A stretch of 64,000 nt of DNA, from positions 1 through 64,000 of the forward strand of contig JACGCK010000136.1 in the NCBI GenBank assembly GCA_014925825.1. Reading direction: 5' to 3'. Of this stretch, positions 3,196 through 35,085 are shown one piece after another; the first letter of the stretch is position 1; every line of letters begins with the position of its first letter. The notes under the pieces are model-generated. The model worked only from the letters and a program-made list of their open reading frames with translations. It was not told the origin of the DNA and made no database searches. The position numbers were made by a program, and so were the translations under genes. This DNA comes from Pholiota molesta (taxonomy: Eukaryota > Basidiomycota > Agaricomycetes > Agaricales > Strophariaceae).

Positions 3196-4254
3196 GTGCC
3201 GGTGGGCGAACGGGACAATGGGGGCATCCAGGTCATACCCCCGGAGAGAGTGGCGAAGGAGACGGATGAGGTGCGGAAGGTGCGGCGAGCGGTGGTGGTG
3301 GACTGTGGTCGGTGTGCGGCATCGGAAGTGGTGGCGAGGGTTAGGCGGGCGATTCCCAGTGACGCGGATATTTTGGCGAAGATTCGGGTGGCTTCAAGGA
3401 AGGACTCGCGCCTGGACGCGATGTGGACCTTGGCATCGGCGCCGGCTCTGCTTCGGTCGCGTTTGAAGGATTTCGTGGTGGATGATGGGTTGGTTCGGTT
3501 CCGGGGCTTGGTGTACGTGCCGAACGACGAGGACATCAAGCGTGAGGTGCTGCAGTTGTACCACGACTCGATTCCGGCGGGGCACCCTGGGCGTGCCAAT
3601 ACTCTGGCCTTGATTGCGCGGAATTACTACTGGCCACGCATGTCCGAGTTTGTGAATCGTTACATGGATGGCTGCGAGATGTGTCAGCGCACGAAACCTC
3701 GGCGGACGAAGCCTCACGGACCTTTGCAACCACTGGAGGTGCCAGACGGCCCCTGGCAGCACGTTTCGACGGACTTCATTGGACCGCTTCCGGCATGCAA
3801 GGGATTCGACATGGTGCAGGTCGTCTGTGACAAGTCGACGAAGCGGGCGCACTTCATTCCCTCGCGGCAGGATGACTCGGCGGTGCAGGCCTGTGATCGA
3901 TACATCGAACGGGTATGGTGCTTGCACGGGACGCCCAAGAAAATTGTCTCCGACCGCGACCCCAAGTTCATCGCGGCGTACACTCGGCGCTTGTGGGAAC
4001 GGATGGGCATCAAGCGCGCGCTGTCGACGGCGCACCACCCGCAAACAGACGGCCAGACCGAGCGGGCGAACCAGGAGCTCGAGATATACCTTCGCGCCTA
4101 TGTGGACTATTATCAGGATGACTGGGTGGACTGGTTGTCATTTGCCGAGTTTGCTTACAATAATCGGGTCAATGCTTCAATTGGCATGTCGCCATTCTAT
4201 GCGGAGTATGGGTACAATCCCTCGTTCTCGATCGACCCTGTAAATTCACAGTCA
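3196..4254 (+). pseudogene. Chromovirus pol fragment, integrase N-terminal and core part
   Basis: This open frame encodes an HHCC integrase zinc-binding motif (the pair ending GHPG, then CEMC) followed by the retroviral-type integrase core. The catalytic acidic residues are visible: D in STDFIGPLP, D in VSDRDPKF and E in QTERANQELE. The frame extends upstream of 3196 to about 3166 and has no ATG, as expected for an internal slice of a polyprotein. Reading is interrupted at 4255-4262 by the target duplication of an inserted hAT-like element; the frame then runs into that element and stops at 4329. The second half lies at 5718-6323 in the compatible phase. Confidence 0.85.
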
Positions 4255-4262
4255 GTCCCGAA
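4255..4262. repeat. 8 bp target-site duplication, left copy (hAT-like element)
   Basis: GTCCCGAA directly abuts the left inverted end. The same octamer follows the right end at 5718-5725. Confidence 0.85.
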
Positions 4263-5717
4263 TAGGGATGCCGAAGTTCGGTTCAGCTCGGTTCTTGACC
4301 CCTTCAGCCAGAACCGAGAACTGAACTGACAGAGAACTGCCCGAACCGGAACTGAACTGGAATAGAACCGACAAAATCGGTTCTGTCGGTTCGGTTCTGG
4401 TTCTGGAACCGGTTCGAACCGTAGAACCGATGGAATTTTATCCAAACCCATCCTTACGCAGGTAGAATCACCACATGAAGGGGTCTCTATGGGTGCCCAC
4501 CAAACGCCATCAAGTTGCGTCTCTCCGCCTCAGAACCCTGCATATTGCAGGCTTCCTCGTACGTGGAGACGGTATAGTGATGGTGGAGGCATTAGCCGCC
4601 CACTCGCGCCGCCCGTTCGTGTGCCGTCCATCTGTCGCCTGTCGCGCGCCATCGTGCGCGGTCGTCCGTCGTCGTTCGAGCGCCGTTGGGTCGTACCTGC
4701 CGTTGGCTTGCTCCCACGGCGCCCGTTCCTATCGCCCTTGGCGCATCGGACGAGCAGCCCTGCGCGTCGTTGTACGGATACCTGCGCGTCGTTGTACGGA
4801 TACACACGCTGTCGCCGAGCCCGAGCCCAGTCACGATGCTGAACTGGTGCTGCGCCGCGGCGGCGGCGGCGGCAGACACCAGGGACGCGGAGAGGGGGTT
4901 ATGGTGCGCCAACGCGGACGCGCCGAGGCGCTGCGACGATGGAGGTCCATCATTGCTGATGAACCCGCGGGGCACCCAGCCCGCGCCAGCTGCGCCCAGC
5001 TCAAACGGGGACCCGTCGTCACCAGCGCCCTCGTCGCCCTCCCTCGCCTTCCGCCGCCCTCCCTCTTCTCCGGCGCTCGCTCGCCAACTCGCCGTGGCGG
5101 CGCCTCGTAGTGCGCGATTGGGTGCCGAGCCTTGCAGTGTGTCGCGTGTCGCGGGCGCTCCGTTGGTTGCTGGGTGGGGTGCCGTGGGCTGCGCGTTCGC
5201 GCTCGTCGTCGGCCGGTGGTGACGTGGCATGCACGGGTTGGCGGCTGGCGGCGGTGCGCGTGGTGTCGCGTCGTTCTAGGCGCAGCTGTCTTACACCGGC
5301 CCACATCCTCGACAGAGGGAGGGGCACACGGCGCGCGGTGATGTGGAGAAGAGGGTGCTGCAACAGAGTGAAATCAATGTTGATTTCATTTTCAAGCGGA
5401 GCTTCAATCTCCGAACGTGGCTTGATGGCACGTGTCAGCACGTGTCGTGTCATCTCTGTCCGCCAATTCTTGCTGGTTCTCAATGATTTTGGTGTAGCTT
5501 GCTCAATTTTGCACCAATAAATACCAGATTTTGAGCACAGAAAGTTCGGTTCGAACCGGTTCGAACTCGGTTCTGGTACCCCCAGGATTCTCAGAACCGA
5601 GAGCCGAACCGTATGCCAGAATGCCCGAACCGGAACCGGACTGAACCAGAACCGTCGGTCCGGTTCGGCCGGTTCCGGTTCTCTGCGCCAGTTCGGAACC
5701 GAACTTCGGCATCCCTA
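4263..5717. mobile_element. Non-autonomous hAT-like DNA transposon, 1,455 bp
   Basis: The ends are a perfect inverted pair beginning TAGGGATGCCGAAGTTCGG. The element is flanked by a perfect 8 bp direct repeat GTCCCGAA (4255-4262 and 5718-5725). Eight-bp duplications and TAGGG-type ends are typical of hAT transposons. Subterminal regions (about 4285-4425 and 5540-5700) are packed with short GGTTC/GAACC motifs in both orientations, which could be transposase-binding repeats (inference). The GC-rich core (4.5-5.3 kb) has long frames in several phases, none resembling a transposase, so it is probably non-autonomous. The phases on either side match when the element and one target copy are ignored. 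Confidence 0.85.
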
Positions 5718-5725
5718 GTCCCGAA
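5718..5725. repeat. 8 bp target-site duplication, right copy (hAT-like element)
   Basis: GTCCCGAA directly follows the right inverted end and matches 4255-4262 exactly. Confidence 0.85.
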
Positions 5726-6323
5726 AGCCGATGAAAGATTGGACCGCATACATGAAGTCCAGGAGCAGCTGAAGGCGTTGTTGGAGTTGGCGGGTGAGAG
5801 AATGAAGCGATTCCATGATGCGTGGGTGGATGAGTCGCCCGATTTTATCGTTGGCGATCGGGTGTTCCTGGAGCGCGCAGATTTGCGCTCGACACGCCCG
5901 AGTCACAAGCTAGATTTTAGACGGTTCGGCCCCTTCAAGATCTCGCAGAAATTATCGGATACAGCGTACCGTCTTGACCTGCCTGATGGCTGGTCGGTTC
6001 ACAATGTGTTCCACGTTTCATGCCTGGTTCCGGCGCGGGAGGACACGATTTTGGGCCGGCGTCAAGAGCCACCGCCACCTATCATTGTCGAGGGGAACGA
6101 GGAGGTCGAGATCGAGCGCATCTTGAAGGAGAGGAAGACGAGGGATGGGGTGGCGGAGTTTTTGGTTCGTTGGAAGGGATTTGACGAGAGCGAGAACGAA
6201 TGGATCAAGGAGTACAACATGCAACATGCGTGCGAGGCGGTCGAGGAGTTTCGACGCGACGAGGCGCTGAGGGGGAAGAAAAAGAAACGACGTGGACGTC
6301 GAGCACAAGAGGGCGAGGTGTGA
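5718..6323 (+). pseudogene. Chromovirus pol fragment, integrase C-terminus and chromodomain
   Basis: This is the continuation of the interrupted pol frame. It encodes the integrase C-terminal region with a GPY/F-type module (RRFGPFKISQKLSDTAYRL), then a chromodomain (from EIERILKERK through FLVRWKGFDESENEW), and a lysine/arginine-rich tail ending at TGA 6321-6323. In chromoviruses this domain directs integration towards marked chromatin. The first codons after the insertion read V-P-K in phase with the upstream half, so the hAT insertion is the only break seen in the retained pol region. Confidence 0.85.
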
Positions 6324-18180: not shown

Positions 18181-19684
18181 TCTCAATTGCGGACGTATTG
18201 CTCTGATCATAGCATGCGCCTCCGTTGACATCTTGTTTTCTTGTATATATCAAGTACAGGTAGCACTGGCAAATTTGCACTGGTGTCTCTACCACGATTA
18301 CGAGCGAATGTGCTTTCCCCTGCTCGAATCCTCGATTGAGTAGGTCCCTTGTATTTAATGCAACGCGCAAGCGTTTATCGACCTCGTCTATGTATAGCTG
18401 TCATCCACCAATACATCCCCAGTTTATCGTCAGATTTCCTTGCGCTAAGTGCTACTTACTAGAGAATGGGAATGAATGTTGCTCAGAGCAAACCAGCCGT
18501 TCAAAAGCCGCACTGATAATGTTGAAACGACACGCCCAAGCGCGCATGCATACATCGTAGATCGGTAAGTTCAGACTCCCGTGAAATGAATACGTGTTCG
18601 AATGCATAAGCATCTGATGATTCTAACCCGTCCCGAACCAAAACTTAGCCTCCTCGCATGTAAAAGTAAGTATTGACGATATATCAGCGGGCTGGGCGGG
18701 GCACTTTGGAAGAAACATGCGATGCGGCAGCGGTCTTCAAGCTTACGCGGTTGATCGACATTATCATCACTGACAGTGATCAGCCGCATTTCGGCGTCAC
18801 TGTTAGCATGGTTGGATAGCTGTGTGCGACACATTTCCGACGGTCGGCGCGTGCGCGGGAGCTTTATGGGTAACAGTCCATATTACCTGTCATTACAAGG
18901 CATCTGTCGGGCACCGGGAATCGAATTTTTTTCAAACTCTAGAGGTTGCCTCGAGGCGTTTCTACACGAGCCGCCGAGATTCTATATGAAGCCTCTGTAC
19001 ATTGCTTGCGCTGCAGACAGACCGAATAGTGAAGAAGGCGTTGTGGGCGTCTGGCTAGCTCGACCAATATAGTAAAGGGCTTAAAATAGTCTAAGTCTGA
19101 CCGCACCTGTACATCCTCACTTGTTGCGCCGTGCGGTATCGACCTCAGACGTAAATTTGAGAACCGACAACTCTGTTGCATTCTGTTGCAATATACTAGA
19201 ATATACTTATCAAACATGTATGTAAAAGCGCGCACATTCTACATTACGCGTGGGGAAAAACAAGATGGTTATCGAAACGCAAACAATGTATGCGCAAGCG
19301 CTCAAAAATCATCCTTGGCAGAAAGTCTGTTTGCGCACGAACACAGTGGGTAATACTTAGATATCGACTATGTATCTCACTTACAAAAAAGCAAAACCAA
19401 GGACACGGGTGCGACATCGACATCACCTAAAATCGCCTTGGGGTGCGCTACAGCCTCGTCGTTTCTACTCTATGTTTCCAAATTGACACTAATCTCGCGA
19501 AATGCAGCCAGACCCCATAGCCTCGAGAAGCGTGATTCCCGCCGAAATACTGGTCAGAATACGGGCATACCGAGGCCGCTCATCGCTAAAAATAAACTAT
19601 CTTTATCATTGGTCAGGAGCCACGGCGCCGACCGACTAAATTACAAGTAACTTCTTTTTGGTATGCCGAAGTGCAATGCTGGGG

Positions 19685-19691
19685 TATAAAA
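19685..19691 (+). promoter_or_regulatory. TATA box of lectin gene 1
   Basis: TATAAAA lies 72 bp upstream of the lectin ATG and is conserved at the equivalent place in the second copy. Confidence 0.6.
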
Positions 19692-19756
19692 GACCATAGA
19701 CTCTGAGCAATCCCCAGCTCCATTCAATCCCTCGCTTTCATTTACACTTAATCGAC

Positions 19757-21003
19757 ATGGGTTTCTTCGCATTATCATCGTTCATTGCCATTGCGGTAGC
19801 AGGAGCTCGTGCAGCTATCCCCGCGTATGTCAACATATTCTGTGCATCGCTGTAACATGTATCTAACGACCTTTTTCTCTTTCCAGTGCAGGCGACTTTG
19901 TCCAGCTCCAGCCTACGACCAGCGGCTCTTTCCCCCGCACACCCTGCATCACCGTCTTCGCCGCAGCCAACGGCTCCGCCGTCGTCATCAACGACTGCAG
20001 CGCGTCCACTCAGCAGCGCGGATGGAATGTCGTCGGGGGCGGCGGAGCGCCCACGCAGATCCAGATCTTCAACACGTTCTGCATGGAGGTGACCGGGGAT
20101 GTGAACCAGTCGGGGACGAAGGTTGAGATCAACTCCTGTGTCGCTGGAGACGCCAATCAGTCGTGGCAATGGAACGCGGATGGAACGGTCCAATGGGCGG
20201 GGACTGACAAGTGCCTCGATTTGACTAACGGTGATTTGGACAATGGCAATCAGGTTAGTTCGTCTTTCTTGTTGACGCGCTTTTCGCGTGCTGATTTGTT
20301 TGCGGCTGGAAGTTGCAAATCGCGACCTGCGTAGCTGGAGATCAAAATCAACAGTGGACGTCGAATGCCCTGGCCAAGTAAGTCGCGCATAAGCTATTGC
20401 AGAATTTGAATCTAACGAGCGCACGTTAGTCCCGTCAACGAGGTTGTTCTCGGTAGCGACAGTAAGTCGATGCAATACTCATTACAATCATATTGATTTT
20501 GATATCTCATGATTTTAAATTACAGATTCCCTCTGCATGGGCGCCAACTCATCCACGAACGGCGCACCGGTCTTCATCACCCCCTGCAGCGACACCACCT
20601 CGCGCAAGGTCTGGACGCTGCCCCAGATCGGACACGGCAACAGCGGCACCTACCGCCTCGCCTTCGGCCCCGACGGCACCGCGCCCGTCAAGTGCCTCAC
20701 CGTCGCGGGCGGCGTCGCCGCCCCGGGCACGAAGCTCGAGCTCTCGGACTGCGTTGCGGGGGATGAGAGCCAGTTCTTCATCCCCACGGGCACGATCCGC
20801 TGGGAGGGCACGGGGTTGGCGGACCCGCTGTGCGTTGACCTGACGGACGGAATTACGAACGCGGGAAATCAGGCAAGTTACCAGCCAAGTAGACTTCTTG
20901 ACGACCTTCGCTGACTATGCTTTTGTAGCTTCAAATCTCGAACTGCACTGGTGATAGCACCCAGATTTGGCAAGACGTTGCTCCTCCTCAGACAGCCATC
21001 TGA
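19757..21003 (+). CDS. Secreted ricin-B-type (R-type) beta-trefoil lectin, copy 1
   Basis: Six exons (19757-19824, 19887-20253, 20313-20377, 20430-20461, 20526-20872, 20929-21003) join in phase into 317 residues. The N-terminus is a signal peptide (MGFFALSSFIAIAVAGARA), so the product should be secreted. The mature part shows repeated R-type lectin signatures: CMEVTGD, NQSWQW, CLDLTNGDLDNGNQ, NQQWTS, CLTVAGG, CVDLTDG and a final QIWQ. About six such repeats suggest two tandem beta-trefoil lobes, roughly residues 25-155 and 160-317. R-type lectins bind galactose-type sugars; the ligand here is not predictable. There is no enzymatic domain. The last intron begins GC rather than GT. No defects are seen, so this is the likely functional copy. 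Confidence 0.88.
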
Positions 21004-21730
21004 GCTCTGGAGCGCTACGGATCCGTGCGAGCAACGTCTAAAGGAACACTTACAGTATACATTACTATTCGCGAGTGTTAATAGGTGTTAATTCGAGGAC
21101 TACGACTAGACTAATTAGCATCTTCTTGAAGTTGATATAACCGCATTCAATTTGCAATATACTTGACTTTGATGATTTGCATTCAACCTCCCACCCCAAG
21201 TCAGAAAGCTGTGAGCCGGAAATTATGGTGATAAACTGTGTTGGTCGTTTGACTCGTCTGCAGGCTGGGTTCCGACCCCTCTTAATTGAGGATGATTGTT
21301 CTGAGTAATAGCTTCAACTTGCTTGCACGTCCATTGTCCTTTGGTTTTCTTATATACTTTAAGTATGGATAAATCATAGCAGCAAATTTGCACCAGTATC
21401 TTGATTCTCTGCCACTGTGGAATTCCTTTCCTCATCTCGATTGAGTAGGTTCCTTATATTGAATACGATGCACAAGCATTTATTGACCTCAATTATGTGT
21501 ATCCAGTACATTACAAGTTTATCGTCGAATTTCCTTGTACGTGCAAAGAAGGGGAATGAATATAGGTCAGAGCAAACATGTAATAATTTATAATTATCAG
21601 ATTCACATCTCGTAGATTCGCGCAGTAATGTAATAGTCCATGAATTCAAAAGCTGGACTTATCACATTGAAGCTATAATTCATACAGGCCAAACCGCGCA
21701 TGTATACATCGTAGACCGGTAAGTTCAGAC

Positions 21731-21920
21731 CGTTTTAGTAGTGGACTCTGGCCCGAGCTGGCCGAGCCTCGATTAGATTAGATTCCATGCAGTAGCACAG
21801 CCAGTCGATCCTCCTTGGCTCTTGCCATCGCATGCTCAGCCTGTCTGCACAGCGCACTCGACTAGTTATTCGAGCCTTGCCAGCCCACGCACCTTAGGGT
21901 AGGTCTTACTGGCCTACTCC
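21731..21920. mobile_element. ~190 bp insertion present only in duplication unit 2
   Basis: In unit 1 the flanks GGTAAGTTCAGAC and CCGTGAA are almost adjacent (about 18575). In unit 2 they are separated by ~190 bp of GC-richer sequence. Its ends show weak inverted similarity (AGTGGACTCTGGCC against GGTGGAGTAGGCC read from the other strand). It could be a small MITE or SINE. It is recognised mainly as an indel; no clear target duplication is seen. Confidence 0.4.
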
Positions 21921-22955
21921 ACCGTGAATAGTTACGTTTTTAAATGCATAAGAATCTAATCCATTGCGAATCAAAGCTTCTTGTATGTTTATTGACGACA
22001 TATTTGCGGGGTGGGCGGGGTACTTTGGAAAAATGCGAGGTTGTAGCTGTCTTCAAGTGTACGCGTCACTGATAGCTGTCTGCGAAACGTTTCTGACGTC
22101 GGCTATGTCGGCTCGTGCTCGACAGCTTTACAAGTAACAGTCTACAATATCCGTATTACCTGTCGTCACCTGGTGGGCACAAGGAATCGAGCGTCTTCCA
22201 GACACAATAGGCACGTCTACACGAGTGCCCCGGCCAAGATAAAATATCTCTATATATTGCTTACGCTGCAGGCAGACCCAAGACTGAAGAAGCCGTTGTG
22301 GACGTCTGGCTCTCCTTGACGAACATAAGCAGTACAAGGGGCTTAAATTAGCCATTGACACGAAGCTACGTATAATGACTTCATCTGCACATACATACTG
22401 TTGCGATATGGACCTCAGACATTGACGTAGATTTGAGATTCGTGAGTTCTGTTCGATTATATCGAACAAGTATGTATGTAAAACCGTGCACATACTACTG
22501 AATTACACGTGGGGCTCGGAGTAAGCGGAAAACAAGATGAATATCTAGACACAAACATTCTATGCCCAAGAATCATTCGTGACAGAAATTTTGTTGCACG
22601 AACACAGTGCCAGTAATAAATAGTTTTTTATCTACGAAAAAGTAGAGCCACTGACGAGCTATAAGTAAATGGATATAACATCCACATCACCTGTGAAATC
22701 CAGTTGGGGTGCGCTACAGCCTCGTCGAATCTCCTCTATGTTTTCGAGTTGACACTAATCTCAGGAAATGCATCCAGACCTCGAAGCCTTGAGAAGTGAG
22801 ATCCCCGCCAGAATATCGTTTAAAATAAGTACAGGCATACCTAGACCGCTCATCGCTCAAAATAAACTATTTTTATCATTGGTCATGGAGGCGCCGACCT
22901 ACCAAGTTATAGGTAGTCTAACTTCGTTTTGGGATGCCGAAGTGCAATGCTGAGG

Positions 22956-22962
22956 TATAAAA
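22956..22962 (+). promoter_or_regulatory. TATA box of lectin gene 2
   Basis: TATAAAA lies 89 bp upstream of the lectin 2 ATG, in the same AAGTGCAATGCTG context as in copy 1. Confidence 0.55.
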
Positions 22963-23044
22963 GACCATAAAACCTGAGCAATCACAGACCTCAGACCCAA
23001 CTACTTTCTCGTTCCATTCGAACCTTCGCTTTCATCTAATCACC

Positions 23045-24297
23045 ATGGGTTTCGTCGCAGTATCATCCTTAATTGCGATTGCGGTAGCAGGAGCTCATGC
23101 AGCAATTCCGGCGTATGTTAACATATTCCCTGCATTCTTGTAACATTTATCTAACGACGTTCGCCCTCTTTTAGTGCAGGCAACTTTGGCCAGCTCCAGC
23201 CTATTACTCGTGGCTCTTTTCCGCGCACACCCTGTATCACCGTCTTCGCTGCGGCCAATGGCTCGGCCGTCGTTATAAACGACTGCAGTGCGTCCACTGA
23301 ACGGCGTGGATGGGACGTTGTTGCTGGGGCGGGAACGCCCACGCAGATCCAGATCTTCAACACTTTTTGCATGGAGGTGACCGGAGGTGTGAACCAGCGG
23401 GGACGAAAGTCGAGATCAACTCCTGTGTCGCTGGAGACGCCAATCAATCGTGGCAATGGAACTTGGATGGAACGGTCCAATGGACGGGGACTGACAAGTG
23501 CCTCGATCTAACCAACGGTGATTTGGACAATGGTAATCAGGTTAGTTTCTCTTTTCTATTGACGCGCTTTTCTTGTGCTAATTTATCTGCGACTGGAAGT
23601 TGCAAATCGCGACCTGCGTAGCAGGAGACGAAAATCAACAGTGGACGTCCAACAACCTGGCCAAGTAAGTCGCGCATAAACTATTCCAGAATTCGAATTT
23701 AACGAGAGCACGTTAGTCCCGCCAACGAAGTTGTTCTCGCTAGCGATCGTAAGTCGATGCACCAGCTAATATTCATTAAATTCTTATGATTTGATATTTT
23801 ATAATTTTGCTTACAGCTTCCCTCTGTATGGGCGCAAACTCGTCGACGAACGGCTCGCCTGTCTTCATCACCTCTTGCAGCGATACCACTTCGCGCAAGG
23901 TCTGGACGCTTCCCGAAATCGGACACGGCAATAGCGGATCTTATCAACTCGCCTTCGGTCCTGACGGCACTGCCCCGATTAAATGCCTCACCGCCATGGA
24001 CGGCGTTGCCGCTCCAGGGACGAAGCTCCAACTCTGGGATTGCATCGCGGGCAGCGCAAGCCAGTTCTTCCTTCCTACCAACTTTATTCGCTGGGAGGGA
24101 ACTAATGCGGCGCAGGGCCTGTGTGTTGACCTGACCGATGGAATTACGAACGCGGGAAACCAGGTAAGTGAAAGGCGAGACATCTCTGAAACCCTTTGCT
24201 GACTCTGCTTTCGTAGCTTCAAATCGCAAACTGCACTGCGGGAGACAATAATCAGCTTTGGAACGATGTTGCTCCTTCTCCTCAAACAGCAATTTGA
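23045..24297 (+). pseudogene. Secreted R-type lectin, copy 2, frameshifted
   Basis: All six exons of lectin 1 are present with conserved splice sites (23045-23112, 23175-23540, 23600-23664, 23717-23748, 23817-24163, 24217-24297), and the signal peptide is intact. Exon 2 lacks one base near 23397 compared with copy 1: ACCAGCGGGG where copy 1 has ACCAGTCGGGG. This shifts the frame and gives an in-frame TAA at 23509-23511 before the second trefoil. Downstream exons still look protein-coding, so the break is recent or is a sequence error. The last intron here has a normal GT donor. A truncated permease follows on the opposite strand. Confidence 0.75.
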
Positions 24298-25862
24298 GCA
24301 TTGGAGCACTACGGTTCCGTGTGAGCAAGGTATAAAGGAAACTTACAGTATATTACCTTTATTCCTATTCGCGAGTGTTGAATCACGGACTACAACTGGA
24401 CTGTTCAGCACCTTTATAACACTGATATAATTGCATTCCACTCGCAATGTACCTGACTTTCGACTATTTGAATTCAACCTTCCACCGTAATTCATGCTAC
24501 AATGCATCATGCATCAAATCTCAGCAGAACATGGCTCTTGAAATGGCCACGGTGGAGGCACTCAAGGCTACAGACTCAAGGACGAAAGTGTTCTGAGTTG
24601 AAAAGTATCCGATGGTTTCCAGCGAGTCTTCTTGCACTTCCGTGCCGTGTGTCAAACCTCGTTTTGAATACCCTGTATGTATCTCGCCGAAGGTATGTCA
24701 GAGAGAAACCGATCGTTATTTATTTTTGACCGACCATTATCTGAAATTGAACCAGATTCACATCTCGTCGACTCGCGCAGTAACCTATATATCAGAAAGC
24801 TGGACTTATAACATTGAAATATGTAATTTAAACAAGACAAACCGGGCACGTATACATCATAGCTCACATCGAATTCAATAGCCATGCAGGTGTACATCCC
24901 ACCCCATCGCACAACTCTATTCGATCTTCTGACGCGCGAACTTCAGGGAAAAGAAAAACATCCATCAACTTCAGCCCTATCGTAACAGCAGACGTTAGAA
25001 GTTAGAACGCACCACATTAACGACCGTCCCATCCTCCAGCACCTCCCTCCGCGGAACGAGCTCGTAGCCAAACAACCGCGGCAGCACCGCCCGCCACACA
25101 GCCCAGTACGCGACGCCCGCGAGCATGATCGCGATCCCGACCAGACAATACCTACATAGGAGCAGAGACCGTCAGCGACCGCCGATGATGCGAACTAGAT
25201 TCGAATGGATACATACAGGTAGTACGGAAGTGGCGGCGTATCGCCGACTTTGTTCGCAGGGTGCAGGAAGGGCGCAATGATGACTAGTACAAGGAAAAGA
25301 AAACATCAGGGCCATGACCACGAACAGTAGAAGAGACACATGAAGACGTACGGAAGACAGCGGCAGCGAAGAAGAACACGGCAAACGGAAGCAGCCAAAC
25401 TGCAGCACAACACACCAGCCGTCAGAAACCAACCACGAGAAGCCCAACAACCGAAAGGAGACGTACTTTTGAATGGCCGTTGGATGTCCGGCTTCTTCCA
25501 CCTCAGCCAGAACAGGCCCTATAGAAAAACATTCCAATCAGCGCCAGTCGCAACCGAACAAACGAGAAAGAAAGGCAGACCAAGACGATGAAGAGATTGA
25601 TGATCTGCTGTTACGCTACAGCAGGAGGGGCGCTATGATCACGATCACCTATGAGCATTCGCCATGCGTTCAGCAACCGCGCGGAATGGAACAAGCAAGA
25701 AAGTCAATAGGACGCACGCACGGAGGGTACGAGATGCACGATGAGCACTGGAAGCGGCGATTTTCCCGTGGGCCATTCCGATGCCCAGAATTTGTTACCG
25801 AGAGGAAGTGGTACGCCTTCTTTTGCCAGCTCTTCATAAGGAAAACAGAAAATATGGGCGAA
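24241..25862. repeat. Segmental duplication shared with 33404-35085
   Basis: The end of lectin exon 6, its 3' flank and the 3' half of the minus-strand permease align collinearly with 33404-35085. The similarity stops at about 25862 within a permease intron, which marks where this copy was truncated. Confidence 0.75.
24995..25862 (-). pseudogene. Mup1-like permease, truncated 3' half
   Basis: On the minus strand this retains the last five or six exons of the permease: ELAKEGVPLPLGNKFW, WPTGKSPLP, then VIVIIAP and the C-terminal NVVRSNF with stop at 24995-24997. The 5' two thirds are missing; beyond 25862 the sequence is unrelated. In the exon encoding VIVIIAP a deletion of about 30 bp relative to 34815-34855 creates an in-frame TAG at 25616-25618. 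It is therefore dead twice over. It lies tail-to-tail with lectin 2, the same arrangement as the third module. Confidence 0.8.
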
Positions 25863-28220
25863 TTTAATAGCCACAAAAGCGTACATTGACCCTCCCCTAT
25901 AGAACATGTAAGCCAACATCCGAGGCGCCACACCCACCCAAAGCATCTGCGTGCCGCAGAAGCTGCATGATATGCGGCGTTCTTTGTACACGCAGATGGT
26001 ACGGTAGGGGTACGGGCGGCAACCGCGTGTAGTGAAGTCTGCAGGCCTGAGATGCTCTATGCCGAGTGTTGGTGGCACTGGCGGTGATAGCGGCGCCGGG
26101 AGGATGGCCTGAGTTGGCTGTGGATACGGAAGCAAGGAGCAATGGGCCGGAGCCGATGTTGGGGGTCTTCGCGGTGGTGGGGTCTTTCGGGCCCAGCCAA
26201 GCCGTCGAGTGCGGACCTCAGGACCTGCAATCCGTGAACGTACCAAGAGGAACTAGTCTAAAAAATGAGCGACATCAAAGGCAATATGAACCCGTTCCTA
26301 CGCGAATACGCTCACCGTATTCAACCACAAGAAGCGCGAACGAAAACGATCTCAACGTCCCAAATTGCCCCCTATGTGTTCCCATCCCCAGACCAGCTAC
26401 AAGGCCAGCCACGCTTGCCTGTAAATGGCAGTGCTCCCACAGCGTCTACGACTAGACCTCTCCGATTAAAGGAATGTTCCGGCGCTACCAATGACGAAGG
26501 TGTGAAAGGTGCAGGTATGCGGTGCGCGCTAAGGGTACATGGACTTCTTGCGTATTCACCGCGTCCTAATGAAATGATAAGTAGTGTCCGAGAGTTCACG
26601 TGCATTAGGGAAGACAAGAGGTTCTGTGCGTGTCGACTGCAAGGGAAAGGTGGCGTACAGGACAACACTAGATGTGAACCTCGCCGCCGCCGGAGCATCC
26701 CAATATACCGGCTACCCATGGATGGTCAGCAAGAGAGCAAAAGCCATGCGCGATCGAAGGAGTATCGAAGCCTTCTTGCTTGCCCAGCACCTTGGATCGC
26801 GGGTTGCGTTTGTAGGGTAGTTTCAGAGGAGGTATACCCAGCAAGGCTACTAAAAGAACGAATAGACATGTCAGCAGGAGAGCGCGAGGTGAAAGGCGAC
26901 GTACTCTTAGTGCCACGCGTGCGCAACGTTCGTCGTCCCCATCTTCCCCAGGCCAGTCTCCATCTCCATCTCCATCTCCAGCCTTCAGCTTCAAAGCTTC
27001 ACTAGCCACTGGTAAAAGCGGATGGTCTCATATGGGATGGCGTGTTTGGTATCGTTAGAGTGAGATCGATAAACCAATACGGCGCCGCCCTAACAAATAC
27101 TCAAATTCTTGGGGATGGGGCAAAATTTGGTCAGTATATTGAGCAACAGAAAAAAAACAAACGATAAGCCCATGCATGAGCCCAAGTCGTTCGGCGAAGG
27201 TAGGACTCGCCTGCGGGGCGCTTTTGGGCGGCATCGATCCGTACCCATCGTCGGGCCATCGATAGGCGTCATCAGAGCCCCTGGCGACTGGTGCGCCGCA
27301 CATGAGAGCCCAGAACGACACACGCTCCGTCTAAGCTCGTGTCGTGCGCCAGAGGACACCCGAGTCCAGCCACGGGCCCGGCGATGGGTCGAATATTGAG
27401 GATGTGGTTGAAGTTGAAGAAGACGCGTGCGTGGAAGAAAAGGTAACCAGGCCCGGGCCGGGAAGCTTGACCAATGGCCGCGGCGGGCGATTTTGTGTGG
27501 AGGAGTAGACAAAACAGAAGGCCACAAGAAGGCTATAAAGCCTAAGATAATACATATGTGAAGGGTGCCGCAGAGGGATGCTCTCCAAAGCTTCAGCGCT
27601 TCAGCGCTCGCTCAGCCCAAAGTTTCAACGTTCAACGGCCATGATGGCAAAGAGGTCCGCTATCAAAATGTGGAAGATAGAGAGTGGGTGTTGCACCTGT
27701 CGTTCTTTGGGCAGCGAAACTTTTTTACAATGAAATCAGATCAAATCACATCCCATCTGCGTCCGTCGGTATTTAGCGCAGATCATTCTGATTATTCTGC
27801 TCAGGCACGCCGCACGTTTCTTGATTCTGTCGTAGACGTCGTAATATCAAACATATGGGATTGATCTCAACTCTCGAGAGTATAAACGAGTGCCTACGAA
27901 CGTCATGTAGCCTCCAAAGCTCTACAAAGAGGGTGGTCTAGTGATTGTTACGTCCTCAGCCTTATTGTGCGACCCAAGAGGCCGTTGATGCTGCGAATAA
28001 TTCTCGACGACCAACTTTCGCATATCAAGAATGAGGCTCGATGCCTAATGTAGATAAAGAGTAATTAGAACTCGTCAATCGAAGTCTCAAATCTGAAGTT
28101 CATAGATACATACCGACACCGAATCAGAGATACGTAGCATCTAAGTTCAAAGGCATCATCAGAACAATATAATTAAAGACCATGATAAGTCGCACGTACG
28201 AGAACTGCGTGGTCGTTCAT
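25863..28220. other. No confident gene; unidentified open frame 26265-27005
   Basis: The longest frame (plus, 26265-27005, 246 codons) begins MSDIKGNMNPFLREYAHR. It resembles nothing I know and has no clear domain, signal peptide or membrane segment. A minus-strand frame over 25863-26246 is an accidental extension of the permease relic. A CCATCT hexamer run lies near 26960. I treat the region as intergenic and probably repeat-derived. Confidence 0.3.
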
Positions 28221-28228
28221 CGATGATA

Positions 28229-28442
28229 TGTTGGATTGACTGATTTCAAGCGCTCCACCGACGTACCATGCTGCTTGGTTGCGTGACTTTCTATTTCACA
28301 ACATCTTTGTTTTTTATATTTCATGTGATTTCTACGTAGTTGTTGATGTATTTAAGTAGCTACGATGATGAATGGGACCTCGCGCGTTTGCGAGGGTCCC
28401 TTTTCCACCCGCCTAAACGTTCGAGAACCGTTTAAATCAACA
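28229..28442 (+). repeat. 5' LTR of the gag-only copia-type element
   Basis: 214 bp, identical to 29586-29799. It contains a stem-loop at about 28375-28401 (GGGACCTCGC, loop, GCGAGGGTCCC), which might mark the transcript end region (inference). Confidence 0.9.
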
Positions 28443-28623
28443 CAAACGCGCATTATACCCTCTGCGCAGCTCTCGTGCCATTCCGAGCGACATCTTTGCT
28501 TTCTCTCTCATCACGCAAACTCGGTCTTATTTTTAGGTTGCAGTACCTAGCGAAATAAACTGCAGAAGAACCCTCCGAGACACTTTTATTCCGCTATCCT
28601 TGCTATTCAATCCCCCTCTCGAG

Positions 28624-29484
28624 ATGACGACCTCTGAATCTACTGTTCGCTTCGAACGCCTCAACAACACCAACTATGCGGAGTGGTCTCTTCGCATGGA
28701 AGCTGTTCTCGTGCGGGCAGGCTTGTGGGAAGTGGTTCAGCCAACTGTCGACACTTTCACTGCGGACGGAAAGGAGAAGGACGCATCGACGATTGCGACG
28801 GAATTCGAAGCCGCGCTGAAGGCGCGCAAGAAGACGAAGATGACTGAAGCGCGAGCCGAGATTATTTTGCGCCTCGAGGATGGCCAATTATCTCATTGCC
28901 TGCGATCAGACGACCCCCGCGAAATTTGGCTAAATTTAGCAAGTGTTCATCGGGCCGCCGGATTCGCGACAAGCTTAGCGCTGCGCCGCAAATTTCTCAC
29001 GCTGAAGAAGACCTCCGAGACTATGCAAGCCTGGATTGGACAAATTCAAGCACTCGCTTTTCGACTGGAGCAAGCCGGGATAACTGTCAGCGACCAGGAC
29101 AAAATCCTCGCTTTAACCATGGGACTCCCTCCGAGCTACGATCCCGTCATCATCAATTTTGATTCCACTCCCACCGACCAACTCACTCTCACTCATGTGA
29201 TTTCGCGCTTGCTAAATGAGGAAGTCCGCCAACTTTCCGGAAAACCGAACGCCGAAAATTCCGAAGGGGCACAAGACGAGGCGATGGCCGTCACTCAGCG
29301 CGGAAACAAGCGCGGGCTAGTGCGCCAAACTTCCGAAATTATTTGCTTCTTTTGCGACAAGAAGGGACATTACAAGTCAGATTGTCCAGAGAGATTAGCT
29401 TGGGAGAAGACGAAGGGGAAGAATGCCGAGACCGCTGCAGCCGTTTCGATATCCGACGACGAAGATTCCGATTTAGCCTTTTGA
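28624..29484 (+). CDS. Copia-type Gag protein with CCHC zinc knuckle
   Basis: A 286-residue frame starts at the first in-frame ATG (MTTSESTVRFERLNNTNYAEW). The N-terminal FERLNNTNYAEWSLRMEAVL segment and the helical middle (MQAWIGQIQALAFRLEQAG, ILALTMGLPPSYD) are typical of Ty1/copia Gag (UBN2-type). The C-terminus has a zinc knuckle CFFCDKKGHYKSDC (C-x2-C-x4-H-x4-C) and an acidic tail. Gag would form the virus-like particle and bind the element RNA. No pol domain follows. The intact frame with identical LTRs suggests it is still functional. Confidence 0.9.
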   Translation: MTTSESTVRFERLNNTNYAEWSLRMEAVLVRAGLWEVVQPTVDTFTADGKEKDASTIATEFEAALKARKKTKMTEARAEIILRLEDGQLSHCLRSDDPREIWLNLASVHRAAGFATSLALRRKFLTLKKTSETMQAWIGQIQALAFRLEQAGITVSDQDKILALTMGLPPSYDPVIINFDSTPTDQLTLTHVISRLLNEEVRQLSGKPNAENSEGAQDEAMAVTQRGNKRGLVRQTSEIICFFCDKKGHYKSDCPERLAWEKTKGKNAETAAAVSISDDEDSDLAF

Positions 29485-29585
29485 AGGATTTTGATAAGAT
29501 TGCGGGGGTGCTGCGGGTATGAAGTTTCCTTTATTTCCTTTTTGATATTCCTTTCATCGTTTGCGGTGTTGCGCTTGCGGGGGTG

Positions 29586-29799
29586 TGTTGGATTGACTGA
29601 TTTCAAGCGCTCCACCGACGTACCATGCTGCTTGGTTGCGTGACTTTCTATTTCACAACATCTTTGTTTTTTATATTTCATGTGATTTCTACGTAGTTGT
29701 TGATGTATTTAAGTAGCTACGATGATGAATGGGACCTCGCGCGTTTGCGAGGGTCCCTTTTCCACCCGCCTAAACGTTCGAGAACCGTTTAAATCAACA
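29586..29799 (+). repeat. 3' LTR of the gag-only copia-type element
   Basis: 214 bp, identical to the 5' LTR, followed directly by the TGATA target duplication. Confidence 0.9.
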
Positions 29800-29804
29800 T
29801 GATA

Positions 29805-30535
29805 TTACTGTGTTCGAATTGTAAAATTGAGGTTGGAGATAATCGCATTCTCAATGTCTTATACCCAACCTTTTCTTGTATTTGTTATGATGATGGTCTC
29901 CTTGTTGGTGATAGCTCTGAAATTTTATTTTGTAATCAAATAAAATACAAGTTCAATAGCCCTATCGACAAACCATATCCATGAGCTAAAATGTCCGCGG
30001 AAAATCGTATATGTATAGCGTACAAATTATACAGCAACTCAAAATTCATCATATATACTTGAAAGCAAACTGTAAAATCGACACGCTTTGCCTACTTGTC
30101 AGAACGCTAAATGGGTTTCCATGTCGGGTTTCTGGTGGTCTTCCCCATGATCGATGGTTGGGCAGAGTGCCCCTGTATCCCTTTACCTTTAAGCACAGGT
30201 AAGCCTGTGGAGGCCTGGGCAAAAATCGGCGCGGATGGGCTATACGGTGAAAGGGAGAAATTCGAAGGAGTGGCATTTGAAGGTTGAGCGCGAGAGGTAG
30301 TTGATAGCCTATTACGAAGGCGATGGGTGGCGGATGTTTAAATTGATGTTGAAACCTCAGCGGAGGTTGTGCGAGTGCTGCTGCTACTGCTGCTACTACG
30401 CGCACGAGGCGAGAACGAAGACATCGACGGCGAATTCGAGAGGTGGCGAGCAGCGGAGGGGAAAGTGATTGCAGCGCGGCCGCGTGTAGCAGTCAAAGAC
30501 TAGGAATGCGAGAAGATGAAGGAAAAGATGCAATG
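29805..30535. other. Intergenic, no gene recognised
   Basis: The AT-rich first part and the more GC-rich part from 30200 contain no convincing coding frame. The right end is the likely 3' untranslated region of the minus-strand NACHT gene. Confidence 0.4.
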
Positions 30536-33190
30536 TCAGGCGTATGATCGTGATGCGGCGGGTTCGTCGGACGTGGAAATCGTGTATTGCGTAGTTTCTT
30601 CGCCGGGCGATGGTGTTGGAAATGCTGGTTTGTAGTTCGCGCATATCGAACAGTCTGCCTGGTGTGCGTGCTCGGGAACAGAAATGCCGCATCTCTAATG
30701 AAGGAACGGCACGCGTCAATGGTGTCAGTGAACTACCATAAACGCCGAATAAAACCACATACATTGATGTATTCCAGAGCAGAATCGGCCATTCTCTTCC
30801 TCCCTCTACTGATGGGCTCGTCGTCCTTGTACTGAACGGCGAGCTCCCACAAAAGTCGTGCCAACTTGGGGTCTTCTGGCGCAGCAGCGAGAATCCTCGG
30901 AAAGTACCTTAGGTCGCTGTATACGATCTTGAGTGTTGGAGGCGAATCAGGATCATGGTAATGCCGGTGGCTTTCAACCCCAATTCCAATACGATCATCA
31001 AATCTTTAATATTATTTTGTGTTAGATGTCAAAATTTGATGTACAGCACAACATCGGTAGACATACCTTCGACCAAGTACCTTCAGAAGCTCTTCCGCCA
31101 GTGCCCCAATTTTGACTTGATCCGCAAAGTAAACCCCAGCTCGGGAAGAATCAGTGAAGAAGTTTTGAAGAATACTGCATTTGTTAACTCGCACAACAGT
31201 CATATGCGATATTTTTTGGAACCGGAATAATTCCATGTCTAGCTTCATGAGATGAATCGCGTCGGAAGGAGGCAGACTATGCACCAATATGTCGAAGATA
31301 TCAGATACCGACACAACGGTATATATATGGGGGTCTGGAATTGCATAGACGGCGGAGATATGGCGCTGGATAAATTCAGGATATTGTTGGTATCGGTGAC
31401 AAATCCAGTCGTCAAACTCGTCCCTCAACCGTCGATATAAGTCTGCATTGATTTCACTACACTGTCAAAAGTTGCAGCATCAGCAACGTATGCAAGGCGG
31501 ATCAAGTAGGAGGTAAGTTATACCTCGGTTCGCAAATGATCGAAGAAAGCATCCCATTTTGTCATATAGAACACTTCCAGTGGAATATTCGAGAGAAAGC
31601 TCGTCAAAGAAAAGTTCTTCAAATCGGTTACAAGCTCTTCCGTATGGGGGACTTCAACATAGTGATGTATGAATCCGTTCACTATGACAGCGAATCGGTC
31701 TAGGTCTTCATACTCCTTTTCCGACGCAATAGTGATGTATCTGTGGAGACGTCGAGCGAGGTCTGTATGTCGTAACGTAGCGTCAAGAAAGAAGCACTCT
31801 GTGCGGCTTTTATCCATCAGAAAGTCTTGTAGAGAGGCGTGGTACAGACGGAGATTATTGTTTTTGTCACAGCTGCCTAATGTTGGTACTAGAATGAGGG
31901 CATGCATATCGATGAGGGCAGCCGCAACGTCTCCAGTTTCGTATCCCAGGAGTGTTTCTACAAAATCAACACACAGAAATTCACCGTAACCAGTTTGCAA
32001 GAAGACAAGCGCGAGGATCTCAAGAACTCGAGTTATATCCTCGACAGATGATAGGATGAGATCGTATAGGGAATCTAGCTGCGCGAATGGGGTATCCTTT
32101 CCGGGATCAGCCAAGCCGAGAACGATTTTGAGCTGCTTCGTTGGATTGCGCCGCGGAGAATCGATGTATTTCATGACTGTCGAGGCGTATATAAATTGTC
32201 CAGAGGCCTTTCGAAGGAGATAGTCGATGTCCTCTTGGCTCGGCCATGGTACCGGGAGAGTGTTACCGGAGGGGTGTAGCTCTCTGATTTCGCCAAATTT
32301 CGCGAATAGGAAGATACAGATGTCATCATCGGGTTTATAATGCTCGTCGAGCGCCAGGCCTTGCATCAAGGACTGCAAAGGCTCCCTGTTAAACGTTTGT
32401 CGGATGATGTATTCGGGTCGGCTTGCGACGAGGAAGATGAGCGGGATGCATAGTTGTTGAATGGATGTGGCAAGAGCATGTAGGAGCTCCTTCTGTACCG
32501 TTTCTTCGCGGGCTTCGTCCAAGCCATCTATAATAACGAGTCTGGGTTGGGCGATAGAAGTTTGCGTGAATTCACCGGCGGCGTCGTTAAGAGGTTTAAT
32601 GATCAGCGCTTGCATCTGGCTCAAGAGTGTACGGGAGAAGACGAGAGGGTCCTGTTCTACAGCGATTACGATGTGTGCACGAAGCTCAGGAATTGATATG
32701 GAGAGCTGATAGGATATGGATGCAATGAATCGCGAGGTGTCGTTGCGCCCAATGCCGGTGCGAGAGAAGAAGAATGATGCAACAAGGAGTCCTTCTTTGG
32801 CGCAGATCTCCGCTATAGTTTGCGCAATCGCTGTTTTGCCCGACCCCGCTGGACCGTATATCCAGACGATAAACTTCTTGAGAACTTCTGGGTTTCGCAC
32901 CCAGTGTTTGAGCTCCGCGAGGATTGCCAAGCGTGTCTGCGGATGGCATTTCGGAGGGTCGACTCGCTCGGCAGCATCGTAAAAGGCTCCAGCAGTGACG
33001 TTCTGGTGGAGGAGATCAAGACCTGCAGAACGCAGATCAACAATTCGTTGATTAGTCTCTGAGAACAAGTATAGTATGTACCTCGGCTGCTGCTGGCTTT
33101 TAGATCTCCGGTATGGAAATGGGCGTCGCCTTGAACGTTTGAAAACTGACCTCCTTCAATTACAGTTTTATGACTAGTTCTATGGAACAT
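30536..33190 (-). CDS. NACHT-domain NTPase (NLR-like), five exons
   Basis: Exons 33190-33082, 33022-31524, 31461-31067, 31003-30763 and 30694-30536 join in phase into 800 residues. The short N-terminal part carries VIEGGQFSNVQGD, a motif common at the start of basidiomycete NACHT proteins. It is followed by a GLDLLHQNVTAGAFYDAAER linker and CHPQTR. The NTPase core has Walker A GPAGSGKTAIAQ and Walker B LVIIDGLDEA (NPHP3_N-type NACHT), then the helical arm ending near FFDHLRTEV. Fungal NLRs of this class act in non-self recognition and programmed cell death. The ~260-residue C-terminal part has no WD, ankyrin or TPR repeats that I can see. Its tail has CGISVPEHAHQADCSIC. Exon 1 starts only ~215 bp from the lectin remnant. 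Confidence 0.85.
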
Positions 33191-33403
33191 CGCACAGCGC
33201 GCGAACGGCACAGGATGGAGGGAACGAAGAGAGCATTGTGACTGATAATCACAGCCTCAGGAACCCATCCCTGACACTGACATAAACATTGACCATTGTG
33301 TTGCAGCACTGCGGTCTCTGCCCCAACACGGAACAGGGCCCACAGACCTAATTTTAGCACAAGCGCTAGCAACTACGGTAATGGGCGGGATCAAAGGTGC
33401 CTG

Positions 33404-33462
33404 GGGGAGAGAACAATCAGCTTTGGAACGATGTCGCTCCTTCTTCTGCAACAGAAATTTGA
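33404..33462 (+). pseudogene. Remnant of lectin exon 6 (third module)
   Basis: The stretch AACAATCAGCTTTGGAACG...GAAATTTGA repeats the last codons and stop of lectin copy 2 (about 24240-24297). Everything upstream of the final exon is absent; the NACHT gene's 5' end sits there instead. The 3' flank continues collinear with copy 2 into the permease. Confidence 0.75.
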
Positions 33463-35085
33463 GCATTGGAGCACTACGGTTCCGTGTGAGCAACGTATAA
33501 AGGAGTTTTAAACTCACAGTAAGTTACCTTTATTCTTGCTTATTCGCCACTGTTAATTCACGGACTATGACTGGACTGTTTAATATCTTCGAAAAGTTGA
33601 TATACTAGTAAGTAGTTTCATTCAGCTTGCAATAAACTTGACTTTGATTATTTGCGTTTGAGCTTCCACCTAGTATTCATGCGACAATGCGTCATGCATT
33701 GAATCTCATCAGAACATGGCTCTTGAAATAACCACGATGGAGGCACTCAAGGCTACAGACTCAAGGCCGAAAGTTTTCTGAAGTTGGAAAAGTATCCGAT
33801 GATTTCCGGCGAGTCTTCTTGCACTTCCGTGCCTTGTGTTCAAACTCGTCTTCAAATCCTTGTACGTATTTCGCCGAAGGTATGTCAGTGAGAAACCAAT
33901 CGTTAGTTCTTTTCGACCAACCATTATTTGAAATTGAACCAGATTCACATCTCGTCGACTCGCACAATAACCTATATATAAGAAAGCTGGACTTATAACA
34001 TTGAAATCGTATTTTTCCGCACATATACATCATAGCTCAAGATCGAGTCCAATAGCCACGCAAGTGCACATCCCACCCCATCACACAACCCTACTCGATC
34101 TTCTGCCGCGCGAACTTCAAGCAAAAAAGAAAAACATCCATCAACTCCAGCCCCATCATACAGCAGAACCTCAGAACTTAAAACGCACCACATTGACAAC
34201 CGTCCCATCCTCCAGCACCTCCTTCCTTGGAACGAGCGCGTAGCCAAACACCCGCGGCAGCACCACGCGCCACACAGCCCAGTACACAACGCCCGCGAGC
34301 ATGATCGCGATGCCCACCAGACAATACCTACATACATAGGAGCCATCAGCGATCATCGCCGATGATGATGATGCGGGATAGATGCGAGTGGATACGTACA
34401 GGTAGTACGGCAAGGGCGGCGTATCCCCGACTTTATTCGCGGGGTGCAGGAAGGGCGCGATGATGACTAGTACAACGCAAAAAAAAAAAAAAAAAGTCAG
34501 GACCATGAACCCGCGCATCCAGCAGAAGCGGCACGGAAAGACGCACGGAAGACAGCGGCAGCGAAGAAGAACACCGCAAACGGGAGCCAAACTGCAGCAC
34601 AACGCCCCAACCCGTCAGAACCCAACCACCAGACGCCCCACAATCGCAAGGAGACGTACTTTTGAACGGCCGTTGGATGTCCGGCTTCTTCCACCTCAGC
34701 CAGAACAAGCCCTATTTACAAAAGCGTTCAGATCAGCGCCCGGTCACAACCGCACAAACGAAGAAGAAAGACGGACCAAGACGATGAACAGATTGATGAT
34801 CTGCTGTGGATATCCCTCCACGTCCAGGATGAACGGGTACGCGACAGCAGGAGGGGGCGCTATGATCACGATCACCTACAAGCATTGACCATGCGTTCAG
34901 CAACCGCGCGGAATGGAACGAGCAAGGAAGGGAATAGATTGTACGCACGGAGGGTATAAGATGCACGATGAGCCCTGGAAGCGGCGATTTCCCCGTGGGC
35001 CAATTCGATGCCCAGAACTTATTACCGAAGGGTAGTGGTACACCTTCTTTTGCCAGCTCTGCATACGGAAAAAGAGAAAATCCGG
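33404..35085. repeat. Segmental duplication shared with 24241-25862
   Basis: This is collinear with the 3' flank of lectin 2 and the truncated permease, including the GCAACTCGTC-type and TGCACATCCCACCCCATC blocks in between. It is the third lectin/permease module, with the reciprocal loss: lectin gone, permease complete. Confidence 0.75.

Follow-up and report, generated by a model that had tools for sequence, protein, structure and literature searches.

A gag-only copia-type LTR retrotransposon lineage with a putative self-primer in the fungus Pholiota molesta

TR-GAG elements are short LTR elements in which gag is the only open reading frame (ORF), with pol presumed to be supplied in trans; those of plants were reportedly described by Chaparro et al. 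in 2015. Drosophila Copia encodes pol. Copia elements primed by a half-tRNA are of the hemivirus type. Tf1, which is self-primed, is said to need a U5 stem next to its primer site.

Self-priming and its variants have been described in several groups. In the Tf1/sushi group, the primer site is complementary to ~11 nt at the 5′ end of the RNA (available portion of PMC7175516). Self-priming has also been predicted for the plant TAR copia lineage, Houba and Osr-1 (available portion of PMC6317226). In a survey of ascomycete copia elements, the GalEa elements of Pezizomycotina have no tRNA primer site and carry a hairpin there instead, the site being palindromic and no LTR sequence being complementary to it (available portion of PMC5445492).

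The locus described here resembles each of these systems in part. It shares with the plant TR-GAG elements the short gag-only LTR layout and the presumed use of pol in trans, but its host is a fungus, its LTR is followed by a self-complementary site, and there are several families in which selection on gag could be measured. With the Tf1/sushi elements, as the same portion of that source presents them, it shares a primer site complementary to the expected RNA 5′ end and a U5 stem by the site, whereas those elements are Ty3/gypsy with their own pol and the present one has a copia-type Gag and no pol. The TAR elements are likewise copia type with predicted self-priming, but in the portion available they are classified by pol domains, so they carry pol, and no gag-only form appears there. 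GalEa is, like the elements described here, a fungal copia without a tRNA primer site and with a hairpin at that place, but in the portion available it has pol and no LTR complement, whereas our families A and B have the LTR complement and no pol. The likeness to Drosophila Copia (PDB 8vvw, 8s41) concerns the capsid part of Gag, the capsid alone being compared. In the open-licence literature, the 12 papers found on TR-GAG retrotransposons are all on plants by title, and no report of a fungal gag-only or a fungal self-primed copia element was found by title; gag-only elements and predicted self-priming copia elements are thus already known from plants, and for fungal copia neither was found in that literature. 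We think it probable that the locus is a complete, recently inserted non-autonomous copia-type LTR retrotransposon belonging to a persisting gag-only lineage, whose cycle would combine putative self-priming with pol supplied in trans.

Structure of the element and its family

The window is the whole 64,000-nucleotide stretch of DNA analysed; it lies on contig C42 of a 65.6-Mb genome, and the other C-numbers used below are contigs of the same genome. The element is a complete LTR element of 1,571 bp at 28229–29799 (Table 1). An earlier note had claimed identical LTRs of 214 bp, a TGATA target duplication and one intact Gag with a zinc knuckle and no pol, and each of these was recovered on direct reading. 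Two identical repeats of this length cannot be chance, and no ORF longer than 103 aa other than gag overlaps the element on either strand.

Table 1. Features of the element (positions in the window)
Feature	Positions	Strand	Basis or remark
Target site duplication TGATA, left	28224..28228		Direct reading, matched to right copy
5′ LTR, 214 bp, TGTTGG...TCAACA	28229..28442	+	100% identical to 3′ LTR
TATA-like TATTTAAG	28349..28356	+	33 nt upstream of putative primer start
LTR hairpin GGGACCTCGC-GCGTTT-GCGAGGGTCCC enclosing putative primer	28374..28400	+	3′ LTR copy at 29731–29757
Putative self-primer GCGCGTTTG	28382..28390	+	Exact reverse complement of primer binding site
U5, 52 nt, with TAAACG/CGTTTA stem	28391..28442	+	Length measured
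Putative primer binding site CAAACGCGC	28443..28451	+	Begins at first base after LTR; 9-nt anchored match
gag ORF, 286 aa from ATG, stop TGA	28624..29484	+	ORF listing, domain search
CCHC zinc knuckle	29341..29391	+	PF00098, residues 240–256
Acidic tail with aromatic last residue (SISDDEDSDLAF)	29446..29481	+	Comparison with homologues
Internal polypurine motif copy GCGGGGGTG	29502..29510	+	Sequence reading
Polypurine tract GCGGGGGTG, abuts 3′ LTR	29577..29585	+	Sequence reading
3′ LTR, 214 bp	29586..29799	+	100% identical to 5′ LTR
Target site duplication TGATA, right	29800..29804		Direct reading

Gag contains Retrotran_gag_2 (PF14223, E 1.3e-26), DUF4219 and the CCHC knuckle, and its capsid part matches the Drosophila Copia capsid by sequence (E 7.6e-14). 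The predicted fold has a mean pLDDT of 78.9 and a pTM of 0.58; the capsid model matches the Copia capsid 8vvw in Foldseek with E 1.2e-8, but with an rmsd of 8.0 over 200 columns. The copia-type assignment made previously is borne out by PF14223 and the Copia-like capsid, and it is by Gag only that the element is copia-type: the Ty1/copia (Pseudoviridae) pol order PR-INT-RT-RH is absent from an element without pol.

A search of the genome for further copies with the element's LTR, as had been proposed, gave 12 matches forming six pairs (C42, C46, C101, C124, C607 and C625), here called family A; LTR match counts are lower bounds. The paired LTRs are 1.29–2.70 kb apart, the widest pair being that on C124, with a ~1.3 kb insert in gag, and all six interiors are gag-only. 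A second LTR query added one unpaired match at C179:393700. This single LTR-like match (C179:393700–393946), 94% identical to the C607 family-A LTR and with no listed partner, is a possible solo LTR. When the genome was searched with Gag, 70 rows were returned, the best 15 of which (E up to 1e-18) belong to 12 loci, with six in family A, five in a family B and one in a family C (C333). Family B has LTR pairs at C115, C444, C79 and C23, as well as C25 with one LTR match, and family C includes a second locus, C588, which was found via its LTR and gives only fragmentary matches to Gag. The gag-only layout of family A recurs in families B and C, and no listed reverse transcriptase (RT) match lies inside the gag-only LTR pairs. 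The layout of a TR-GAG element (an LTR pair with target duplication, one gag ORF, no pol) is therefore found here in several copies, namely six in family A, four plus C25 in family B and two loci in family C.

Two further details of these copies were observed. Within gag, the C23 copy (L025) carries an insert of ~0.8 kb and the C124 copy one of ~1.3 kb; the alignment overlap suggests an 8-bp duplication at both. In the short stretch after gag, the polypurine motif occurs twice, ~75 nt apart, in both families A and B, and both copies keep the family's own ending, GGGGGTG in A and GAGGGGGTA in B.

A 5-bp target duplication, read with the element ends allowed to shift by up to 8 nt, flanks all 11 elements in which both LTRs could be delimited (six in family A, four in B and one in C). 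The duplicated sequence differs between all 11, that of C625 being TTTTT. LTR pairs are identical in 7 of the 9 elements compared, with C79 differing at 1 site and C23 at 2; C46 and C444 each have one mismatch in slightly longer repeats, and none within the LTR ends set by the duplication. The C124 pair has 2 differences of 206, and the C625 pair is 95.5% identical. A query made by joining the flanks of the element aligned across the junction to C94:1–119 at 96%, the match ending at the contig end, and at five other places at 82–92% (C378, two on C603 and two on C8). The genome thus contains the target sequence in uninterrupted form, with C94 a possible rather than an established allele, and the insertion is therefore real and lies in a sequence that occurs more than once. 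Recent movement, of which the earlier note saw signs, holds. The element region is itself surrounded by long duplicated segments (window 19430–24339 and 24236–35072, ~3.3 kb and ~9.2 kb apart), mostly 78–91% identical. By eye, the window also holds two ORFs at 3196–6323 (+) resembling a Ty3-type integrase and chromodomain end, an apparent broken chromovirus-like element, and a 516-aa ORF at 31518–33068 (−) resembling a NACHT-type NTPase with a P-loop.

Complementarity between the primer site and the LTR

Just inside the 5′ LTR, families A and B carry a putative primer site that is complementary, over 9–11 nt, to the element's own LTR. This is a new finding that goes beyond the earlier note, from which the sister families, the selection on gag and the differing primer type of the pol-bearing elements compared were also absent. 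The family-A site, CAAACGCGC, is an exact reverse complement of the LTR segment GCGCGTTTG, and in C607 both sides have changed with pairing kept (CAATCGCGCG with CGCGCGATTG). The family-B site, TAATTGAGTGA, pairs with the LTR segment TCACTCAATTA, C444 and C79 reaching 9 Watson–Crick pairs, or 11 with G–U. In L083, a B-related element, CAATTGAGTG pairs with CACTCAATTG, changed on both sides relative to family B. Each group thus contains one compensatory change: T–A to A–T between C42 and C607, and A–T to G–C between family B and L083.

Counted as Watson–Crick pairs anchored at the first base after the LTR, the match of the site to its own LTR is 9–10 nt in 5 of 6 family-A copies, 9–11 nt in all four family-B copies and 10 nt in L083. 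The sixth family-A copy, C625, has lost the part of the LTR that would pair, leaving a match of 3 nt. In contrast, all five pol-bearing elements compared have a match of 3–4 nt and family C one of 3 nt, although these reach 6–8 nt when G–U pairs are allowed. The Tf1-type pattern, ~11 nt of compensated complementarity to the own LTR, is thus seen in two groups, with 9–11 nt and one compensated position each.

Alternatively, mobile gag-only elements of this kind could take a tRNA or a fragment of one as their primer, and the site–LTR match would then be due to chance or to another role such as dimerisation. We regard this as unlikely. Two families whose sequences are unrelated both have the match beginning at precisely the base required of a primer site, and it is preserved by double-sided change in each group. 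Shuffling gave P ≤ 0.0025 in each of the 10 matching elements (5 A, 4 B and L083), where copies within a family are not independent. Constant spacings would also fit a primer lying at the 5′ end of the RNA: all four family-A copies measured have a U5 of 52 nt, three family-B copies and L083 have one of 55 nt, and a TATA-like box (TACTTAAG in C46) lies 33–34 nt before the putative primer in all four family-A copies measured, none being found in family B by the patterns used. To the credit of tRNA priming, the compensatory change affects only one position per group, and tRNA genes were looked for in the window alone, where none was found.

RNA folding bears on both readings. In folds started at the primer, the primer and site pair with a probability of 0.90–0.99 in 8 of 8 elements. 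In family A, an RNA start several bases further upstream lets the LTR hairpin close and so abolishes the fold: in C42, a fold begun at least 4 nt upstream hides the primer in the hairpin (pairing ≤0.07), and in C607, pairing is 0.94 with 6 nt upstream and 0.33 at 8. With 400 nt added downstream, predicted pairing is 0.40 in C42 and 0.0 in C115 of family B, which gave 0.39 at 100 nt and 0.98 at 200. This drop in longer folds and the hairpin's own stem favour tRNA priming. The core pattern of the hairpin was found in both LTRs of five family-A copies and, with 3 mismatches, at two places, with 0 in the reversed control. Under self-priming, the hairpin may act as a switch, the RNA 5′ end lacking its first arm and leaving the primer free, and the 3′ end being closed.

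Selection on gag and the source of pol

Pairwise gag dN/dS (Nei–Gojobori) was 0.052–0.173 in 21 comparisons, 15 between family-A and 6 between family-B copies, with dS up to 1.26; three of the six family-A copies are partial, C625 has a stop, and one family-B copy is partial. Thus gag is under purifying selection. Because gag is kept under selection, the element seems to need its own Gag, for which cis preference would be the simplest reason. Four aligned family-A copies share the same stretch from stop to LTR (94–105 nt), and therefore much of the family-A divergence probably accrued in the gag-only state.

Non-autonomous copies usually arise by deletion from autonomous families, and the gag-only form might be a passing accident of this kind, derived only recently from an autonomous copia family. 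We find this quite improbable. The earlier note had left it to be seen whether the element was a single deletion derivative whose other copies carry pol; all six family-A pairs proved gag-only, two further gag-only families exist, and LTR queries of the genome found no pol-bearing copy with the family-A LTR. The dS values and the common stretch after the stop also speak against it, the copies having diverged with gag still under selection, and so does a primer type unlike that of the pol-bearing elements compared. In favour of a deletion origin, the Gag of pol-bearing C555 has a stretch (NAVENDSDSDIAF) similar to the tail of the gag-only Gag, and so the lineage probably once had pol. Overall, the Gag is only ~23–33% identical to the Gags of pol-bearing families in the genome, a point against the borrowing of pol.

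A domesticated gag gene lying by chance between repeats, with which the selection on gag would agree, is very improbable and is refuted for this locus by the perfect LTR pair, the target duplication, the uninterrupted-site sequences and the recent copies at unrelated places.

Immediately after the LTR, five pol-bearing copia elements (on C224, C124, C14, C555 and C123) carry GGTTATGGGCCCCG, and the pol-bearing element on C489 carries GGTTATGGGCC. The sequence GGTTATGGGCC... is, we presume, complementary to the anticodon part of the initiator tRNA and of half-tRNA-Met type. This type of site is common to the five pol-bearing elements, L084 and family C, and is absent in families A and B. The C489 lineage, considered as a self-primed helper, was ruled out by its half-tRNA-type site. 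Among 64 near-complete RT matches (at least 200 of 244 profile positions covered), 42 are preceded on their own strand, within 9 kb, by a listed half-tRNA-type site, and C489 adds one; these counts use 97 of 100 sites among 117 pattern matches, the reversed control gave 28, and at some distances between site and RT (0.7–1.4 kb, >6.5 kb) the site may belong to a different element. The RT match at C625:24597 has no half-tRNA-type site among the matches listed. None of the 43 RT matches (of 64) with a typed primer site belongs to an element with a self-complementary one, and such an element may be present among the other 21.

Recent-looking LTR pairs occur in pol-bearing elements on C224 (100%), C123 (100%) and C555 (99.5%, with a 1,523-aa frame). 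Their LTRs share the start TGTTGG with the gag-only LTRs of families A and B, and therefore elements of this type are a plausible integrase donor for the gag-only elements.

Elements related to family B were also seen. L083 (C596:6900–12750) is a 5.5-kb LTR element without recognised coding sequence, its LTRs 98% identical to each other and flanked by CATAT on both sides, and 77–78% identical to family B over 94 bp. Its LTR spacing made it a candidate autonomous partner, which was rejected: the frames listed in it reach no more than 212 codons, and neither the two gag-only Gags nor the four gag-pol proteins used as tblastn queries gave a match. With an LTR and primer site related to those of family B, it is a possible second-order parasite. 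A second L083-like element lies at ~C106:36.8–41.7 kb, as judged from pattern and LTR positions only. At C610:133484–134488, two B-like LTR matches ~0.9 kb apart accompany a B-type primer site; this element, known from positions only, is possibly a miniature (TRIM-like) member. The ten weaker B-LTR matches are all more than 5 kb away from any listed RT match.

Taken with the evidence on priming, the reading we favour, and hold to be likely, is that these are a lineage of Tf1-like, putatively self-primed gag-only parasites, with their own capsid and primer and a borrowed pol.

Relatives in other fungi and a proposed cycle

In a protein search with Gag, 260 proteins matched, of which 120 were listed (184–324 aa); those named among the matches listed include Mycena, Gymnopilus, Bondarzewia, Pleurotus, Jaapia and Trametes. 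None was found in viral contigs. This first search admitted only proteins of 157–500 aa, and it was repeated with the query padded to 902. Among 5,612 candidates of 496–1578 aa there was then 1 match, P0122, a partial Gag near the protein's end with no pol domain (Pfam, E 0.01). A control Gag from a pol-bearing family gave 101 matches among 4,307 candidates, 99 of them with at least one of the pol-associated domains PF00665, PF07727, PF13976, PF22936 and PF25597, and 84 with PF00665 or PF07727. A gag split from pol by a frameshift would escape this comparison, and the homologues in other fungi, known as proteins only, could be ORFs of that kind. In a tree of 46 Gags, which included 24 of the 120 listed homologues, one branch has all 15 Gags from pol-bearing families (some from broken copies) on the same side; its support is modest (84/82), and the long branches in the tree may be misleading.

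The Gag tail is conserved in these homologues. Among the matches listed, F, W or Y is the last residue in 98 of 112 with a recognisable knuckle, and the last 15 residues are 33% acidic, compared to 15% overall. As a trait of gag-only elements alone, the tail was rejected, because the similar stretch in the pol-bearing C555 Gag is internal, with more sequence after it. This internal position suggests that the gag-only stop may mark the mature end of Gag; the acidic–aromatic tail may be such a mark or a dock for the helper pol.

We propose the following cycle. Transcription would start in the LTR at, or within ~2 bases of, GCGCGTTTG. Gag would be made from the element RNA and would package RNA, probably its own preferentially, as the selection on gag suggests. 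Next, as in Tf1, the RNA would bend back so that its first ~9 bases anneal to the primer binding site and serve as the primer for reverse transcription; what is observed is the complementarity, with its compensatory changes, and from these we infer priming. Protease, reverse transcriptase, RNase H and integrase would be provided in trans by a pol-bearing element, for which the numerous copia elements of the genome are the simplest source; such mobilisation would be implied by recent copies without pol. Integration would complete the cycle, producing the 5-bp duplication that is found.

A broader reading, held tentatively and at slightly less than an even chance, is that a long-lived parasitic LTR lineage spans mushroom-forming fungi, having its own capsid and RNA primer and borrowing the enzymes alone, its primer site co-evolving with the LTR independently of helpers that use tRNA fragments, with a possible hairpin switch and a role for the tail. 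The retrotransposon cycle would then be naturally split, with capsid, RNA and primer from one element and enzymes from another. One can then ask what the recruitment of a foreign pol demands of a capsid, for what reason a parasite retains a gag of its own, and whether a self-primed parasite is released from the tRNA choice of its helper. Short single-ORF Gag proteins in fungal annotations should also not be taken too readily for debris, since they may represent complete mobile elements.
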